Below are positions 27,328-34,510 of a stretch of 64,000 nt of DNA, in pieces. The position numbers and the translations under genes were made by a program. Numbering within the stretch: position 1 is the first letter of the stretch; each line of letters starts with the position of its first letter. The notes under the pieces were generated by a model, which had not been told where the DNA came from, ran no database searches, and saw only the letters and a program-made list of their open reading frames with translations. Origin of the DNA: Colwellia sp. (GTDB taxonomy: Bacteria; Pseudomonadota; Gammaproteobacteria; Enterobacterales; Alteromonadaceae); the NCBI GenBank assembly GCA_020630795.1, contig JAHDIK010000010.1, forward strand, positions 17,609 through 81,608. Direction: 5' to 3'.

Positions 27328-28191
27328 ATGATCCATAGTATGACCGCATTCTCACGTGTAGAAGTAAAAGGTGAGTGGGGCAACGCAGTATGGGAAATAC
27401 GTAGTGTAAATCAACGTTTTCTAGAAACGTACTTTAGGCTACCAGAGCAATTTAGAAGTATTGAACCCGTTTTACGCGAACGTTTTAGAAAAAATCTTAA
27501 TCGAGGCAAAGTAGAATGTAGCCTACGCTTTAATGCAAACGCCTCAGCCAAAACCAACTTGTCGCTTAACAAAGAACTCGCCCAGCAACTTATTGAACAT
27601 GCTGGTTGGATAAACGAGCAAACCTTAAACAGTCAATTAAATCCTGTAGAAATAATGCGTTGGCCTGGCGTAATGGAAGCTGAAGAAACCGACATGAGTA
27701 TTATTCAAACCGAGATACTCGCGGGATTTGATCAAGCACTTACCGATTTCATAGCAGCTCGAGCGAGCGAAGGCGAAAATATGAAAGCGCTTATTGAACA
27801 ACGCTTAGACGCCATTACCGCTGAAGCAGATAAAGTTAAGGCGTTCATGCCAGAAGTTATTCAATGGCAACGCAATCGTATTACCGACAAATTTACTGAC
27901 GCTAAAATAGAATTAGATTCAACGCGTGTAGAACAAGAACTTGTTCTACTTGCCCAAAAAATGGATGTGGATGAAGAAATTGACCGTTTATACAGTCACG
28001 TAAAAGAAACGAAAGGTATTCTTAAAAAAGGCGGCGCTCAAGGCCGACGTTTAGATTTTATGATGCAAGAATTCAATCGTGAAGCTAACACACTTGGTTC
28101 AAAATCTATTAATTCTGACATTACAAATTCAGCTGTTGAATTAAAAGTGTTAATAGAGCAAATGCGCGAGCAGATCCAGAATATTGAGTGA
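27328..28191 (+). CDS. yicC: YicC family protein (RNA-processing)
   Basis: 287 residues, full length. N-terminal MIHSMTAFSR, WEIRSVNQRFLETYFRLPE (YicC_N), and C-terminal LVLLAQKMDVDEEIDRLYSHV and GRRLDFMMQEFNREANTLGSKS (DUF1732), ending EQMREQIQNIE. E. coli YicC is an endoribonuclease acting on small RNA turnover. The 3' end of this gene is the integration site of mobilisable islands in Vibrio and relatives; an integrase gene follows directly. Confidence 0.96.
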   Translation: MIHSMTAFSRVEVKGEWGNAVWEIRSVNQRFLETYFRLPEQFRSIEPVLRERFRKNLNRGKVECSLRFNANASAKTNLSLNKELAQQLIEHAGWINEQTLNSQLNPVEIMRWPGVMEAEETDMSIIQTEILAGFDQALTDFIAARASEGENMKALIEQRLDAITAEADKVKAFMPEVIQWQRNRITDKFTDAKIELDSTRVEQELVLLAQKMDVDEEIDRLYSHVKETKGILKKGGAQGRRLDFMMQEFNREANTLGSKSINSDITNSAVELKVLIEQMREQIQNIE

Positions 28192-28336
28192 TTAGTTTTT
28201 ACATATATATTCACAAAAATAGCCAGATTTAGCGCCTTATTCAGGTTTTATTCACGAAATATTCAGTCGAATTAATAAAAACCTGCTTTAAGGTGGTGAC
28301 TTTGGCGGTGACAACTCACCACTTGAAGCAACTTGT

Positions 28337-28379
28337 CTCCTCATTTTACTCACCACATTTTGGTTGAGAATTTGAGGAG
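28337..28379 (+). other. Hairpin covering the integrase ribosome-binding site
   Basis: CTCCTCA (28337-28343) is complementary to TGAGGAG (28373-28379), and inside it CTCA (28349-28352) pairs with TGAG (28365-28368). GAGGAG is the Shine-Dalgarno sequence for the GTG at 28387, so folding would block translation of the integrase. A second inverted pair, GGTGGTGA/TCACCAC, lies about 45 bp further upstream. Confidence 0.5.
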
Positions 28380-28386
28380 AAAATTT

Positions 28387-29658
28387 GTGAGTAAAACCGA
28401 TAAATCTAAACAGATTGAAGCACTAGTTTATTCTGGTGATCCTACCTTTCAGAATGTCTATCCAAGTTTATATATCGATGTAAGATCAGTTGGTGTTGCC
28501 AACTGGGTTTTCCGTTACCAACTTCGGGGAAGGCGATGTCAGTTCAAAATCGGCAGCTATGGACAAGACCATGAGCAACTATTGGACTTCCCTGACGCGG
28601 TTAAAATCGCAATTGATTGCCGCCAAAAGTTAAATGATGGTATCGATCCTAAACTGGAAATGGAGCGCCAAAGCCGCCCTAAGCTCATAACGTTTGACGA
28701 TTGTGCTCAGAAGTATTTAGCTAAAAAGCGCGAGCAAATTCGAACTGCTTTTGTTTACGAACGAATCTATAACAAAGAGATTAAAGCCCACCTCGGTTAT
28801 GTTCGGATGGAGCACATTAACAGTTATGATATTGATAACGTTATTCAACGTATTCTAGATACGGGTAGGCCAGCGGTCGCGAACCAAGCCTTGCTTTTAA
28901 TCAAACGTGTCTTTCGAGTCGCTATTAAGTACAGCGTTATTGTGTCAAATATCGCACAGGAGTTTTCACAAACGGAAGATGCAGGGGGAGCAGATAATAA
29001 ACGTCAGCGATTTTTAGAAGAGCATGAGATAGAAGCAGCCTTTAGAGTTTTTAGGGAAAACCCTGTGAAGATCACACAGTCGTCCTATATTGCACTATCG
29101 TTATTGCTTATGCTGGGTACACGGAAAATGGAGCTGTTATCAGCAAATTGGACGCAAGTTGATATTGAGCGGCAGACCTTTAAATTATTTGCAAGTTCAA
29201 CTAAAACCGATGCTGCACTTGTGATCCCTATTCCTGATCTGGCAATTCCGCTGTTTCAGGATTTACGAGTGCTGAGTGGCCACTCGGAGTATCTCTTTCC
29301 TAAACGTAAAGCGAGTCAATACCCTCACATTGGGCCTGATACCTTGAATGATGCTGTAGCTTGTTTGTTTGGTATTTCATACGGAAAGCGGGATAGAGGT
29401 CCTAACCGTATGGAGGAAGCAGGTGTTGAGCATTTTACCTTACATGATTTGCGCCGTACTTTTCGCACGTTTCTTTCTAAACTAGGTGTTAACCGCGAAG
29501 TTTCTGAAAAATGCATGAATCATAGCTTAAAAGGCGTGGAGAAAACCTATGATTGCTACGGTTTTTTTCCTGAGCGAGTAAAAGCTCTGAACAAACTCAG
29601 TGAATATGTTGCTCCTTTACTTAACTATAAGCCCCTAGTTGCTGCTACAGTTGGTTAA
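28387..29658 (+). CDS. Tyrosine integrase at the yicC site
   Basis: 423 residues from the GTG at 28387, preceded by GAGGAG at 7-8 bases; the open frame starts at 28333. An N-terminal arm-binding domain with a beta-rich start (WVFRYQLRGRRCQFKIGSYG) precedes a core-binding helical domain and the catalytic domain. Catalytic set by position: Arg246, Lys273, His353-x-x-Arg356, His379 and Tyr388 in GVEKTYDCYGF. It is the P4/MGI type of integrase. It lies 195 bp behind the yicC stop and reads in the same direction, the layout of islands mobilised by SXT-like elements. Only a small cargo follows. Confidence 0.93.
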   Translation: MSKTDKSKQIEALVYSGDPTFQNVYPSLYIDVRSVGVANWVFRYQLRGRRCQFKIGSYGQDHEQLLDFPDAVKIAIDCRQKLNDGIDPKLEMERQSRPKLITFDDCAQKYLAKKREQIRTAFVYERIYNKEIKAHLGYVRMEHINSYDIDNVIQRILDTGRPAVANQALLLIKRVFRVAIKYSVIVSNIAQEFSQTEDAGGADNKRQRFLEEHEIEAAFRVFRENPVKITQSSYIALSLLLMLGTRKMELLSANWTQVDIERQTFKLFASSTKTDAALVIPIPDLAIPLFQDLRVLSGHSEYLFPKRKASQYPHIGPDTLNDAVACLFGISYGKRDRGPNRMEEAGVEHFTLHDLRRTFRTFLSKLGVNREVSEKCMNHSLKGVEKTYDCYGFFPERVKALNKLSEYVAPLLNYKPLVAATVG

Positions 29659-29673
29659 CTAAATTATAGAGTT

Positions 29674-29705
29674 CTGCTGAGCAATGCTCAGCGGAGTTTT
29701 ATATT
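29674..29705 (+). terminator. Terminator of the integrase gene
   Basis: GCTGAGC (29676-29682) and GCTCAGC (29686-29692) with an AAT loop, flanked by a further pair of bases, followed by AGTTTTATATTTT. Confidence 0.8.
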
Positions 29706-29787
29706 TTGGCTGCAAATAAGCCATGAGTTTAATGGAACAGGTTTAATGTTAAACTTTCAATAATATTGTTATGTAAGGGGATGACTT

Positions 29788-30225
29788 TTGATTACTATTC
29801 GACAAGGCGAACTAACAAATTGCGAACAAGATTTTCAAATAGTGTATAGACTGCTATGCACTGAGCCTGTAACGAAACTTTACGAGGAAGATCTTAGGAT
29901 ACGTGTAGATGATGGCAATACCATTTTTATCATGGAGTGCTCAGATCATGGAGTAATAGGTACGGCTGATATTAGGTGTGATGCAGTTGCGGATTACACA
30001 TTAGTTTCCTTAGTCATTGATCAGCAGCACAGAGGTAAAGGTTTTGGCACTCAGTTACTTAAACATGTAGAAGGTCATGTTTTTAGCATTGACGTTGATA
30101 CATATGATAGTAAGTTAAAATGTATACCGGGAAATGATAGCTTTACGTATTACCATAATAGGGGGTATAAAAGCGATGGCTTAAGAATGGTTAAAGTTTT
30201 AGACTCAAATAATGCGTATCACTAA
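29788..30225 (+). CDS. GNAT family N-acetyltransferase (island cargo)
   Basis: 145 residues. Strand-4 and acetyl-CoA loop region TLVSLVIDQQHRGKGFGTQLLKHVE, with the Q-x-x-G-x-G pyrophosphate motif, then a C-terminal YYHNRGYKSDGLRMVKV. The start is TTG at 29788 with AAGGGGATGA upstream. It sits between the integrase and the hipBA pair and is probably accessory DNA; the substrate is not evident. Confidence 0.8.
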   Translation: MITIRQGELTNCEQDFQIVYRLLCTEPVTKLYEEDLRIRVDDGNTIFIMECSDHGVIGTADIRCDAVADYTLVSLVIDQQHRGKGFGTQLLKHVEGHVFSIDVDTYDSKLKCIPGNDSFTYYHNRGYKSDGLRMVKVLDSNNAYH

Positions 30226-30370
30226 TCCCAATGCTCTTAAGCAGGCACTAGCCAATAACCGACTAGAATCGAAGGTACCTTCTAAAAAGGTCAAAGAGCT
30301 TCTAGAGAAAGCTTTGACTGATTCGACTATTACTACTTCTCAAGTTCTAAATTTACTGTGTAATAGCTAA
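30212..30370 (+). CDS. Small ORF of 52 residues between GNAT and hip operators
   Basis: ATG at 30212 overlaps the end of the GNAT gene by 14 bp; TAA at 30368. The product (MRITNPNALKQALANNRLES..., Lys/Leu-rich helix KKVKELLEKAL) is a plausible short helical protein. The frame is open over the whole gap up to the first hip operator. No clear ribosome site; coupled translation from the GNAT gene is possible. Uncertain. Confidence 0.35.
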   Translation: MRITNPNALKQALANNRLESKVPSKKVKELLEKALTDSTITTSQVLNLLCNS

Positions 30371-30380
30371 TTGTAAATAG

Positions 30381-30398
30381 TTCACCACTACTAGTGAA
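30381..30398. promoter_or_regulatory. Hip operator O1
   Basis: TTCACCACTACTAGTGAA: a perfect TTCAC-N8-GTGAA palindrome, the first of four copies phased at 50 bp. Confidence 0.7.
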
Positions 30399-30430
30399 CT
30401 ATTGTTGAATTACTACTACAACATCCTATA

Positions 30431-30448
30431 TTCACTACTACTGGGGAA
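30431..30448. promoter_or_regulatory. Hip operator O2
   Basis: TTCACTACTACTGGGGAA: second copy, starting exactly 50 bp after O1; one mismatch in the right half-site. Confidence 0.65.
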
Positions 30449-30480
30449 TATAACTCATCTTATGACTACTATCTAATTTA

Positions 30481-30498
30481 TTCACTAGTAGTAGTGAA
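30481..30498. promoter_or_regulatory. Hip operator O3
   Basis: TTCACTAGTAGTAGTGAA: third copy, exactly 50 bp after O2. It is a perfect TTCAC-N8-GTGAA match lying just upstream of the candidate -35 element. Confidence 0.75.
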
Positions 30499-30504
30499 TA
30501 TTTC

Positions 30505-30532
30505 TTGCTAATGTGACTTCTAGTAATATAAT
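30505..30532 (+). promoter_or_regulatory. hipBA promoter candidate
   Basis: TTGCTA (30505-30510) and TATAAT (30527-30532) with a 16-bp spacer. Operator O4 starts inside the -10 hexamer and O3 ends six bases before the -35, so a bound HipB dimer would block transcription. Confidence 0.6.
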
Positions 30533-30548
30533 CACTACTAGTGGTGAA
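30531..30548. promoter_or_regulatory. Hip operator O4
   Basis: ATCACTACTAGTGGTGAA: fourth copy, exactly 50 bp after O3; one mismatch at its first base. It overlaps the -10 element and the predicted transcript start. Confidence 0.7.
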
Positions 30549-30567
30549 TTATTGGGTACATATCAAT

Positions 30568-30858
30568 ATGGCTAATCGAGTTAAAGTTTCAGACATGCCT
30601 AGCTCTACACACATAGAAGATGCGGAAGTACTAGGTAAGCTAATTAAAGCAAAACGAACAAAGTTGAATATGAAGCTGGCAGACTGCGCAGCGCTATGTG
30701 GAGTCGGTATAAATACGCTATCACGTATTGAAAACGGCAATGCTAATTGTACTTTGTCCGCAGTCTTTTCGGTTTTACAAGGGTTAGGGATAAAGCTAAC
30801 AACAAAAGAGCTACTAACTCCGAACGACAATACTGTAGCTGATAACGAGTGGGTCTAA
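30568..30858 (+). CDS. hipB: HipB-like antitoxin, HTH regulator
   Basis: 96 residues from the ATG at 30568; a GTG at 30541 lies inside operator O4 and is unlikely. Cro/C1-type helix-turn-helix: LGKLIKAKRTKLNMKLADCAALCGVGINTLSRIENGNANCTLSAVFSVLQGLGI. It should bind the four palindromes upstream and neutralise HipA. The leader is short and the ribosome site weak. The hipA start follows its stop by 3 bases. Confidence 0.85.
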   Translation: MANRVKVSDMPSSTHIEDAEVLGKLIKAKRTKLNMKLADCAALCGVGINTLSRIENGNANCTLSAVFSVLQGLGIKLTTKELLTPNDNTVADNEWV

Positions 30859-30861
30859 CTG

Positions 30862-32205
30862 ATGAATGATAAATTAGATGCCTACAGCCTAAATATAAGA
30901 TTTGCAGAAAACGTTATCGGTGAACTATCACTGAACAAAGAAACTGGCTTGCCCAAACTAGAATACAATGATTATTGGCAACAAAATGGTTTCGCCATAT
31001 CTCCAAACCTAACGCTTGATAATAATCACGACAACTCTGTTGCATATAACTTTCTTGATAATGCCTTACCTGAAGGAGAAGCTCGATTGCTTCTTGCAGA
31101 AAGGACTGGAGTATCAGAAAAAAATGTTTTCTCACAAATACGCGAAATAGGCGGTGATCTTTCAGGGGCATTCACGTTCATGACTAACAGTATTGAACAG
31201 AATGCCAATGAAGCTGATAAGCCAGCTTTCAGATTGGTCACTGAAGGTGAACTTGAAAGTAGACTAGATACTAAAGAAGACATAGGTTTATTAACATGGG
31301 ATGACAAGCCTAGGCTCAGTGTGGCTGGGGTTCAGGATAAGCTCAACGTATTCATAAATGATAAGGGCGAGATTGGTTTTGGTGATGGAACGTTATGCTC
31401 TACGCATATCTTAAAATTTGAAAAGAAAAACAGTCTGAACCTAGTGCTCAACGAATACTTTTGTATGAAGCTATCCGCAGCAGTTGGCTTACCTACTGCC
31501 GAAGTCGAGTTCACTCGATTTGGAAAGCATCCAGCGCTTATCGTTCATCGTTTTGATAGAAAATATGTCTCAGAGAAAAAACAAGTGTTGAGGAGGCACG
31601 TCATTGACGGATGCCAAGCTTTGAACTTGCCTAGGGATTTTAAATACGAACGAAATTTGGGTGACAACAGAGATGTATTGCATATAAGAGATGGCGCAAG
31701 CCTCCCTAAATTATTTGAGTTTAGTAAATCAATGTCTTCCCCTGCCCAAAGCGCACAATGGCTAATCAACTGGCAGTTATTTAACTTAATCATTAGTAAT
31801 TATGATAGTCATGGAAAAAACGTATCACTGTTTTGGGGTAAGGAGAATAGTAGCTTCACTCCTGCTTATGACCTCGTAAATATTGCCATGTTTTCTCAAT
31901 TTAAACATGTGTTAGCTATGGCAATGGGAGGTGAATTTGATCCCAATGATATCAATGCCTATCAGCTAGCTGACTTTGCCGAAACTTGTGCAATAGATAA
32001 AAAATTACTGGCAAGGTTACTTTCTAATTTAACAAAACAAGTGCTGTCCACCTTAACAGAAGAATCTTTTATTCAAGATCTAATCAAGACCAATGACTTT
32101 TCGGCAGAACAGCAAATATACATAGGTCAATTGAAAGACAATATTGTATCAAGAGCACAACATTTAAGCTCTCAAACTTCATTGATCTCAACAATCGAAG
32201 TGTAA
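30862..32205 (+). CDS. hipA: HipA-like serine/threonine kinase toxin
   Basis: 447 residues, E. coli HipA length (440). An N-terminal couple domain (FAENVIGELSLNKETG) is followed by the kinase core: the Ser-containing ejection loop RLSVAGVQDKLNV with Ser153, Lys185 in HILKFE, catalytic Asp315 and Asn320 in SNYDSHGKNVS, and metal-binding Asp337 in AYDLVN. All residues needed for activity appear intact. In E. coli HipA phosphorylates glutamyl-tRNA synthetase, stopping translation; the target here is not known. Translationally coupled to hipB. Confidence 0.92.
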   Translation: MNDKLDAYSLNIRFAENVIGELSLNKETGLPKLEYNDYWQQNGFAISPNLTLDNNHDNSVAYNFLDNALPEGEARLLLAERTGVSEKNVFSQIREIGGDLSGAFTFMTNSIEQNANEADKPAFRLVTEGELESRLDTKEDIGLLTWDDKPRLSVAGVQDKLNVFINDKGEIGFGDGTLCSTHILKFEKKNSLNLVLNEYFCMKLSAAVGLPTAEVEFTRFGKHPALIVHRFDRKYVSEKKQVLRRHVIDGCQALNLPRDFKYERNLGDNRDVLHIRDGASLPKLFEFSKSMSSPAQSAQWLINWQLFNLIISNYDSHGKNVSLFWGKENSSFTPAYDLVNIAMFSQFKHVLAMAMGGEFDPNDINAYQLADFAETCAIDKKLLARLLSNLTKQVLSTLTEESFIQDLIKTNDFSAEQQIYIGQLKDNIVSRAQHLSSQTSLISTIEV

Positions 32206-32333
32206 TGGAAATTTTTTAATGCCTTGTTCGATATTGATGCGCGACTGTTGTTTTCATTTTGTTAATAAACGGTTAATATTTGTACGTGTAAATGTGGAAC
32301 TTACAAAGTTAACAAAGCAAAATGGAGTGATTT

Positions 32334-32975
32334 ATGAAATGCTTGCCAATACTACCTATAGTGTTTTCAGCCTTGAGCCTTTCATCGCTCGCGAATCAAG
32401 TTGATCAAACTGTTGAATTTTCAATTCAGATGATGAAACAGCACAATTCTATTCAACGTATGTCTACCTGTTCAGGTATCGACGCTAATATTTTAGAGCA
32501 AGGCTATCGAAAAACGTTAACGCATTGTTTAACGATATTTGGTGACAACGAGAGTAAAGTTGAGCACTGCTTACAAACTAAATTGTCCAAAAATACTGGA
32601 ATGACCAACAGTAAAATGATGGATTGTAGTGAGCAAATATCGCCTAATGAAACAAGTCTTAATGAGTTAAATAAAGAAATTGAAACATTAGAAAATAGCA
32701 TTGCTGAGTTGGAAGATGCTGATGAATTGTCAACAGCGCAACAAATTGCCTTGGAAGCGATGCAAGAGCGAATAGACAATTTGTACGACAAACAAATGCA
32801 ATTAGAAGATGTTGCAGCTTATGACAACATGTCAGACACTGAAAAAGCGTTAGAAGATGTATACAGGGCAATAGGTGATGGCGACCCAACACCGCTTCAA
32901 AATAAGCAAATTGAAGCCCTGTTAAATAAAATGAAAAACGAGCGTTTGGAACGTTTTAAAAGCTTATTGAAATAA
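32334..32975 (+). CDS. Exported Cys-containing helical protein, unknown
   Basis: 213 residues. A signal peptide (about 1-20, ending SLSSLA) is followed by a segment with four Cys (STCSGIDANI, LTHCLTIF, KVEHCLQT, MMDCSEQ) likely forming disulfides, then a long coiled-coil-like region with many Glu/Leu/Gln. GGAG precedes the ATG by 7 bases. It lies 32 bp before the OmpA-type lipoprotein gene, so the two may act together in the periplasm. No family recognised. Confidence 0.75.
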   Translation: MKCLPILPIVFSALSLSSLANQVDQTVEFSIQMMKQHNSIQRMSTCSGIDANILEQGYRKTLTHCLTIFGDNESKVEHCLQTKLSKNTGMTNSKMMDCSEQISPNETSLNELNKEIETLENSIAELEDADELSTAQQIALEAMQERIDNLYDKQMQLEDVAAYDNMSDTEKALEDVYRAIGDGDPTPLQNKQIEALLNKMKNERLERFKSLLK

Positions 32976-33007
32976 GCACACAAGTGATGGATTAACGAGG
33001 AATAATA

Positions 33008-34510
33008 ATGAAAAAACATATTGTATTTTTATCAGCGTGTTTAACGTTAGCGGGTTGTGCAAGCCAACCCGCATTAGTTGAAAGTGAAGCAATTCAAAAG
33101 TATTTACCTGTATCAACTTTAAAGGCGAAGTTAGCTGATGAGGTTGATAATGAATTAAACATTTTGTCGCCTAAATATTATGAAAAAGCGACTGATTTAT
33201 ACGCGCAAGCAATGTCGTTAGCAAAAGCTGACAATAATAAAGCGAGTGCTAAAGCTGAAGAAGGGTTGAAAGCTCTTGCACAGGCGAAAAAAACAGAAGC
33301 ACTAAACAAAGATGTTTTAGAAGAGGTGTTAGCGGTTCGTGCAAAAGCTGTTAAAAGTAAAGCTTCTATATCAAGCCCTGATGCTTTTGAAGACGCAGAA
33401 GAGCAGCTATTAGAGTTAACGTCGCTCATTGAAAATGGTGATGTAGAAAAAGCGAAAGAGAATCGCGCAAAAGCAATGAAGGCATATGCTGATATTGAAC
33501 TAGCGTCTATCAAGGTAAATATTGTAGACGCTGCTAAAAAAGCAATAGAACAAGCAAAAGACAATGATATTGATGATTATGCACCGCGCACGATGAAGTT
33601 AGCGGAAGAAGATTATCAGCTTGCGTTAAACACCTTAGATGCTGATCGCCGTGAAACCACAAAAGCCAATGAGCATGCACAGCGTTCTATTTGGAATGTT
33701 GAGCGTGCTATTGGTATTTCAGAGGTGATTAAAAACTTTGAGCAGTCTGATTTTGAAGAAGAAGACAAAGTACTTTGGTATCAAGAACAAGTGGCTCGCA
33801 TTGTGTCACCAATACAATCTAAAGTCGGTTTTAATGATCAAAATAAACAAGTGGTGAAAACACTTACGGGTAAAGTACAAAACTTGGTTGACGAAAAAGA
33901 CTCGGTAACTGTAGCAATGACTGCAGCTCAGGCAAGAGAGTTGAAAATAGCTAAAGAGAAAGAGTTAGCATTGGCTGAAGCTAAAGCACGAGAAGCAAAA
34001 ATAGCAAAAGAAAAAGAACTCGCGTTAGCAGAAGCACAGCAAAAGGTTGATGCAGATAATCAGCGTAAAGCTGAAGTAGCGGCTAAATTTAATGGCATTC
34101 AATCAATGTTTACGCAAAATGAAGCTGATGTTTATCGCCAAGTAGATAATGTGCTGATTCGAGCTCATGGTTTTTCATTTAAGTCGGGAAACAGCGAAAT
34201 AGATGCAGCGAACTTTGGACTGCTAAACAAAATAATTAAAGCGATAGGTGAGTTTCCTGATGCACAATTGGTTATCTCTGGTCATACCGATAATAGTGGT
34301 AGCGATGCGATTAACTTAAGACTGTCGAAAGAGCGTGGTAAAAAGGTAGCCGATTTCTTAATTGAGGTAGGCCATATAGACGCGGGAAGAATTGAGTCGA
34401 ACGGTTATGGTAAAGCTAAGCCCGTTGCCCGCAACGATACAAAAGAAGGAAGGGCTGCTAATCGCCGTGTAGAAATTTTAATAGTGAATAACGTTGAGCC
34501 TATTTTGTAA
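33008..34510 (+). CDS. OmpA-family lipoprotein with long helical region
   Basis: 500 residues. Lipobox LTLAGCASQ with Cys at about 17. An Ala/Lys/Glu-rich helical region, with a repeated AKEKELALAEAKAREAKI segment near residues 305-345, separates it from a C-terminal OmpA domain (about 385-495) with the peptidoglycan-binding VISGHTDNSGSDAINLRLSKERG and NGYGKAKPVARNDTKEGRAANRRVEI. It probably ties the outer membrane to the cell wall. A strong terminator follows. Confidence 0.88.
   Translation: MKKHIVFLSACLTLAGCASQPALVESEAIQKYLPVSTLKAKLADEVDNELNILSPKYYEKATDLYAQAMSLAKADNNKASAKAEEGLKALAQAKKTEALNKDVLEEVLAVRAKAVKSKASISSPDAFEDAEEQLLELTSLIENGDVEKAKENRAKAMKAYADIELASIKVNIVDAAKKAIEQAKDNDIDDYAPRTMKLAEEDYQLALNTLDADRRETTKANEHAQRSIWNVERAIGISEVIKNFEQSDFEEEDKVLWYQEQVARIVSPIQSKVGFNDQNKQVVKTLTGKVQNLVDEKDSVTVAMTAAQARELKIAKEKELALAEAKAREAKIAKEKELALAEAQQKVDADNQRKAEVAAKFNGIQSMFTQNEADVYRQVDNVLIRAHGFSFKSGNSEIDAANFGLLNKIIKAIGEFPDAQLVISGHTDNSGSDAINLRLSKERGKKVADFLIEVGHIDAGRIESNGYGKAKPVARNDTKEGRAANRRVEILIVNNVEPIL

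Follow-up and report, generated by a model that had tools for sequence, protein, structure and literature searches.

The founding module of persistence is HipBA. How complexes bound at its promoter restrain the HipA kinase is at present pictured from E. coli, where the operators are paired at 28 bp. Among solved complexes, that of S. oneidensis HipBA is the closest by sequence, in both HipA and HipB, to the pair considered here, and its structures are reportedly those of Wen et al. 2014 (PDB 4PU3 and related entries). In Legionella pneumophila HipBST, an excerpt of PMC10653801 describes three evenly spaced operators bound by HipB; the inter-operator gaps, as reported, are 53 bp. Caulobacter crescentus hipBA1 and hipBA2 carry a series of identical inverted repeats (extract of PMC7029023), with three operator sites each (extract of PMC8545095), at intervals that the authors call consistent with the complexes of E. 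coli. According to the same extract of PMC7029023, hipA7 probably impairs the dimerization of HipA within operator complexes. Thus, the pitch of an operator array could matter for toxin control.

The hipBA pair analyzed here lies in a 64,000-nucleotide stretch of Colwellia DNA, the whole of which we call the window. Its features are the following.

30381..30398, no strand: candidate operator O1, TTCACCACTACTAGTGAA, 0 mismatches
30431..30448, no strand: candidate operator O2, TTCACTACTACTGGGGAA, 1 mismatch
30481..30498, no strand: candidate operator O3, TTCACTAGTAGTAGTGAA, 0 mismatches; ends 6 bp before the -35 hexamer
30505..30510, plus strand: -35 hexamer TTGCTA, consensus match only
30527..30532, plus strand: -10 hexamer TATAAT, consensus match only
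30531..30548, no strand: candidate operator O4, ATCACTACTAGTGGTGAA, 1 mismatch (A for T), inside TATAAT; overlaps the -10 hexamer
30568..30858, plus strand: hipB, 96 aa, predicted Xre/Cro-type antitoxin and repressor; PF01381 (HTH_3), 32.8 bits, cut-off 23
30862..32205, plus strand: hipA, 447 aa, HipA kinase; PF07804 (HipA_C), 150.6 bits, cut-off 30.5; PF13657 (Couple_hipA), 53.9 bits, cut-off 22.5

A motif scan recovered the four TTCAC-N8-GTGAA palindromes exactly where the original prediction had placed them, starting at 30381, 30431, 30481 and 30531, two of them perfect and two with one mismatch. The claimed period was likewise exact, with start-to-start distances of 50, 50 and 50 bp. Run over all 5-base half-sites and gaps of 6 to 10, a de novo caller given neither spacing nor half-site returned TTCAC-N8 with the same four sites at a score of 13.0. 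In 2000 dinucleotide shuffles of the region, scores averaged 5.8 and never exceeded 10.0 (0/2000 at 13.0), and none of the 2000 contained three equal successive spacings. Taken singly, the window's matches with up to two mismatches are about as many as chance would give (43, compared with 33.4 ± 5.6, a count of 43 being reached in 8 of 100 shuffles); what is unusual is therefore the array rather than any single site. Across the 3.9-Mb genome the motif is not enriched, with 160 matches (≤1 mismatch) and 167 for the reversed control, and a genome-wide regulon was rejected on these counts. The four palindromes are most likely HipB operators, since near relatives keep the sites and half-sites track the HipB recognition helix across the family, as described below.

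hipB lies directly upstream of hipA, in the same orientation and 3 bp apart. With both HipA domains, the kinase residues and an upstream Xre-type HTH gene, the pair is by its sequence a HipBA type II toxin–antitoxin system. HipA is unsplit, carrying Couple_hipA and HipA_C in one 447-aa protein, unlike the separate HipS and HipT of HipBST; the Legionella HipBST system, with that split toxin, also differs from the window in its six-base repeats. In phmmer searches HipA matched S. oneidensis HipA (4pu3_A) at E=1.2e-87 and E. coli HipA at 1.1e-23, and it has one match in the genome at E ≤ 0.001. An alignment of 12 sequences, E. coli HipA among them, shows no variation at S153, D315, N320 and D337; we take these residues to include the P-loop Ser, the catalytic Asp and the metal Asp. 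HipB falls below the curated NCBIfam cut-offs of subfamily and equivalog models (TIGR03070, 43.3 bits against 71.65, E=2.6e-11; PRK09726, 27.9 against 79). Its name therefore rests on gene order, the HTH domain and a phmmer match to S. oneidensis HipB (4pu3_D, E=2e-6). The recognition helix reads GINTLSRIENG, and the protein ends in ...ADNEWV, so that the C-terminal Trp called universally conserved in an extract of PMC3376134 is present.

The surroundings of the locus have features of their own. In the stretch 27328-32205, a tyrosine integrase gene (28333-29658), a GNAT gene (29788-30225) and hipBA come right after yicC, and the integrase, which has an arm-binding domain, ends 0.7 kb upstream of the array. 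In 7 of 14 loci, scanned up to 5 kb upstream and in some only 1.5 kb, a motif from the yicC 3′ end, GATCCAGAAYAT, also precedes hipA by 0.5–2.6 kb. This recurrence makes it look as if hipBA islands insert preferentially at the yicC 3′ end, as at a hotspot. No island-flanking direct repeats of at least 16 nt were found in 28050-33100, and no tRNA genes in the window. A 213-aa open reading frame after hipA (32334-32975) has a MobL match below threshold (17 bits, cut-off 28.5).

Close relatives keep the array. We tried 26 loci of the TTCAC family, 25 of which, the window's own included, have a recognizable hipB start. Four (L002, L004, L010 and L012) have four sites each, 49–50 bp apart, with O1 at −185/−186 from the hipB ATG and 0–1 mismatches. 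L023 also has four (mismatches 2, 1, 0 and 1; 50, 50 and 51 bp apart; O1 at −188), and L055 has three, O1 not being found. Among the other 18 loci, at up to two mismatches, there are three sites in nine, two in seven, four in L056 and one in L008; in five of the seven two-site loci a third site falls on the lattice at 3 mismatches. The gene-nearest interval is 49 bp in all 17 of these 18 loci that have at least two sites. The inner eight bases and the spacers vary, and the array stays with hipB in relatives whose upstream DNA differs. Relatives also have A as the first base of O4, since this base is part of TATAAT. Homologous pairs lacking the repeats, named at the outset as the finding that would count against HipB operators, were not encountered among the nearest relatives; L008, a more distant member of the TTCAC family, has one clear site only.

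The regularity extends well beyond these relatives. The hipA relatives surveyed span the window's family, order, class and phylum, with others from the genome_contigs collection; they make 241 loci in all, consisting of those returned by the searches and a hand-picked part of the further places listed. Partial hits (L011, L017, L019, L020) and motif hits (L051-L054) were left out, as were places already represented by earlier loci (L138, L168, L169, L170, L174, L179, L180). An iterated profile located hipB in 128 of 129 and 110 of 112 loci, with no call in L082, L150 and L171. De novo operator calling covered these 238 loci; 17 were redundant at 85%, leaving 221. An array was significant (p ≤ 0.05, 40 shuffles per locus) in 173 of the 221 and not in the remaining 48. 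Nearly all significant loci (161/173) belong to one of two classes, a long class of 87 with spacings of 49.8 ± 0.6 bp and a short class of 74, to which E. coli belongs, at 27.5 ± 0.6 bp; the other 12 comprise 2 intermediate, 4 with both spacings and 6 with neither. Of 445 individual spacings, 189 fall at 48–52 bp (mean 49.81, sd 0.57), 174 at 26–29 bp (27.45, 0.64) and 12 at 37–41 bp. Shuffled regions, taken from the first 115 loci, place 3.6% at 48–51, 3.4% at 27–29 and 2.3% at 38–40 bp. The long-class lattice has two sites in 9, three in 56 and four in 22 of the 87 loci.

Two loci stand out individually. L247 has a short-class array of nine called sites, the most in the survey, at 27-bp steps or multiples over ~290 bp, several of the nine being 8-of-10 matches. 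In L254 the operators are 39 and 39 bp apart, midway between the classes, and its HipA sits on a long, unsure branch. In four genomes (G282, G374, G417 and G292) one long-class and one short-class system occur together, and each keeps its own spacing, which indicates that the host does not decide the spacing. The regular spacing noticed in the window is a real constraint, though not one special to this locus, shared as it is by one entire side of the HipBA tree.

That tree was built by maximum likelihood from 111 HipAs (72 long, 37 short, 2 intermediate) with a quick search and no bootstrap; it covers rows with a class and a HipA of at least 380 aa, among them some whose HipA was retrieved once their spacing was already known (40 stretches). 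Spacing class changes once on it, at a branch with SH-aLRT 100, an outcome that near-copies favor. When class labels were shuffled there were 31.3 changes on average, and none of 500 shuffles was as low as one. All 72 long-class rows, the window's HipA (L001) among them, lie on one side of that branch. The HipA columns that separate the two classes are too many to point to an interface. By comparison, the half-site core takes 22 forms and changes at least 26 times on the 82 rows in which it is fully resolved, where the spacing changes once. These changes were counted on a fixed 4-base core; single-linkage clustering was dropped, having lumped unrelated sites together, with 115 in one cluster. 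hipBA arrays offer a clear case of spacing conserved far longer than the sites themselves.

HipA type also predicts the spacing class of loci held out from the tree. Profiles of long-class and short-class HipA were built from tree rows and applied to two samples. The viral sample supplied 28 of 41 loci, the other 13 being without upstream DNA or repeats of others, and the plasmid sample supplied 17 among the 30 matches listed, of 1814 records, with 2 phage records unused. Of these 45, one had no hipB and four were redundant, leaving 40 to be scored. Predicted and observed class agreed in all 32 that could be classified (24 long, 8 short; 8/40 were unclassified), of which 23 have significant arrays and 9 non-significant ones. 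The agreeing plasmid loci include significant arrays in Legionella lytica, Aeromonas caviae and Sinorhizobium fredii NGR234 and non-significant arrays in Sulfurospirillum and Arcobacter.

What varies in the sites appears to follow HipB. The helix sequences GINTL and SINTL go with ATTCA(C), KQATI with TATCC, RQATV with TATACG, SKQA with AATCCT, TKKTL with AAGTGTA, SKPTL with AAGTNAA, GVRFI with TTTCCCG or close to it, and GLTF with TTTATNCG. The exceptions are AKQTY (L061) with AAGT, SKQTL (L118) with ATTAA, and the RQDTV group, which is mixed. HipB pairs below 35% identity have a half-site core in common in 21 of 46 cases when their recognition triplets match (25 differ) and in 44 of 3669 when the triplets differ, the pairs in both comparisons not being independent. 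These associations suggest that the half-site letters are read by the recognition helix through a partial code, with which the operators of uncharacterized pairs can be guessed. The clearest single illustration is L131, a distantly related hipBA from another genome in the same family as the window: its HipB is 29% identical to the window's, yet with a SINTV recognition sequence it has the same INT residues and the same ATTCAC half-site, at 50 bp. Cross-regulation between such pairs is conceivable.

On balance, we favor the reading in which the palindromes are autoregulatory HipB operators whose pitch is fixed by the geometry of neighboring HipA-HipB2-HipA complexes. HipB dimers, alone or with HipA, would occupy the four operators. 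The predicted promoter (TTGCTA, 16 bp, TATAAT; 10/12 consensus bases) lies between O3 and O4, and the original placement of O4 on the -10 and O3 just upstream of the -35 agrees with this consensus match. Occupancy of O4 would block the -10, with O3 just above the -35, so that a full array could be expected to shut off hipBA. A TATAAT-like hexamer precedes the gene-nearest operator in 55% of long-class loci and 8% of short-class loci; because such hexamers are common at other ranks too (18–37%), we make no family-wide promoter claim. The spacing would be fixed because neighboring complexes must meet in one geometry and would, in effect, be a ruler set by complex shape. In the clade of the window pair and S. 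oneidensis HipBA, an extended complex would repeat at a 50-bp pitch, or some five turns of curved DNA, and a compact complex in the E. coli clade would repeat at 27–28 bp. The letters of the half-site change often, and the pitch, depending on the HipA/HipB assembly, would hardly change at all. If so, pitch would be a sequence-only readout of complex architecture, and one that can be tested by spacing changes.

A more specific form of this proposal is plausible, and we hold it tentatively. The switch between 50 bp and 27–28 bp may be a switch of quaternary architecture, a ruler with two states, in which the DNA of 50-bp arrays is curved and the units are packed as a filament or partial wrap. 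Since array DNA curved at ~10 bp per turn would have all operators facing one side, HipA-HipB2-HipA units joined end to end could hold the kinase off and the promoter shut. The textbook case of E. coli would then be only one of two states.

Rather than contact, the 50-bp pitch might reflect separate occupancy, HipB operators being placed so that extended complexes do not collide and three or four sites buffer the repressor. We regard this as unlikely. Intermediate occupancy is raised as a possibility for Legionella HipBST in an extract of PMC10653801, and the absence of interstitial sites from the spacers also fits: in 185 spacers (49–51 bp intervals) the best extra match averages 5.22 of 10, compared with 5.27 in shuffles. 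The role first suggested for degenerate half-sites between the copies is rejected on the same figures; GACTACTATC is indeed present at 30464, yet spacers hold no extra sites above shuffles. However, collision avoidance sets a minimum, not an exact pitch such as that of the 48–52 bp spacings, with their sd of 0.57 bp, and the spacer DNA shows phased A/T. In 130 intervals of exactly 50 bp, A/T in the spacer core is phased with operator centers (z of 5.8–5.9 at 9.5–10 bp, with 5.9 at 10 bp), and the phasing is seen in the 57 intervals other than the gene-nearest (z of 4.5 at 9.5 bp and 3.6 at 10 bp; all z values from single-base shuffles). At five turns per interval, 17 of 19 recognition-helix groups lie above the dinucleotide-shuffle mean (mean effect 1.28 compared with 0.13), SKPT and PVDVI among them by almost nothing. 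The corresponding numbers of groups are 10 at three turns, 3 at four and 2 at six; at seven turns 15 of the 19 lie above the null, with a smaller mean effect (0.22 compared with −0.13). DNA that curves at ~10 bp per turn around a protein surface, or along one, would be expected to show such phasing. The bending in a fixed geometry that was first proposed for the array stands to the extent that it fits this pattern.

The same phasing could be turned around, with DNA shape coming first. The operators would then sit on a curved or wrapped stretch, perhaps organized by a nucleoid protein, 50 bp would be five turns, and any HipA–HipA contact would be secondary. The match of spacer-core A/T to operator centers at 9.5–10 bp is what such a reading would lead one to expect, but we judge it improbable, more so than separate occupancy, because both classes coexist in four genomes and HipA type predicts class, which together indicate that the proteins, and not the host, decide the pitch.

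Three other readings can be dismissed briefly. That the spacing is a relic of recent tandem duplication of a 50-bp unit is very improbable: two of the window's three spacers do share 42% of their bases (other pairs, 27% and 23%), and repeats D1 and D2 run past the palindromes, but spacer-to-spacer identity within 50-bp loci is at background (0.309 compared with 0.295 in shuffles, 119 pairs), on which duplication is rejected at the family level, and the pitch also holds with HipAs (L122, L123 and L131) whose matched part has only 29–33% identity with that of the window. Arm sites of the neighboring integrase, suggested by its arm-binding domain and proximity, and hairpins or terminators deserve almost no credence and are rejected, since the array accompanies hipB where the surroundings differ, the inner N8 is not constant from one relative to the next, and a terminator scan calls none at the four sites. 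Binding by an unrelated host regulator, for which we found no point in favor, is scarcely credible given the association between half-site and HipB recognition helix and the lack of motif enrichment elsewhere in the genome.

The array in the window is real, in all likelihood an operator array of its HipBA pair, and, by itself, a known kind of element. What is apparently new, within the literature searched, is a family-wide rule of two spacing classes, with one switch, that is independent of the half-site. Searches of open-licence PubMed Central found no description of a 50-bp HipB lattice or of the two-class rule; Wen 2014 and Schumacher 2015 lay outside that search, and the operator spacing of S. 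oneidensis may already be in print in one or the other.

It is useful, finally, to contrast the window with the two crystallized HipBA systems. E. coli K-12 hipBA also has four palindromes with an N8 gap and a HipA kinase with HipB. Its nearest operator is at −39 from the start codon, compared with −37 in the window, and its TATAAT also overlaps that operator, by one base in the printed sequence. As first proposed, the half-sites are unlike, TATCC-N8-GGATA in E. coli and TTCAC-N8-GTGAA here. This contrast was sound for the half-site and incomplete overall, since the intervals differ too, 28, 39 and 28 bp as against 50, 50 and 50 bp, and E. coli HipA lies on the other side of the single class switch. 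The S. oneidensis-type locus L075, with a HipB that matches the crystallized 4pu3_D at 61/61 aligned residues, has instead four operators near 50 bp, as the window does (51, 50 and 50 bp apart), with a different half-site and helix (AAGTGTA and TKKTL, compared with ATTCAC and GINTL). An extract of PMC10627512 describes the toxin parts of S. oneidensis HipBA and of E. coli HipBST as separated by the HipB dimer, and the E. coli HipBA complex as closely packed. Thus, for the two crystallized HipBA systems, the long class goes with an extended shape and the short class with a compact one. Should the HipBAs across the tree from E. coli use a 50-bp lattice, the picture drawn from E. coli may not apply to them.
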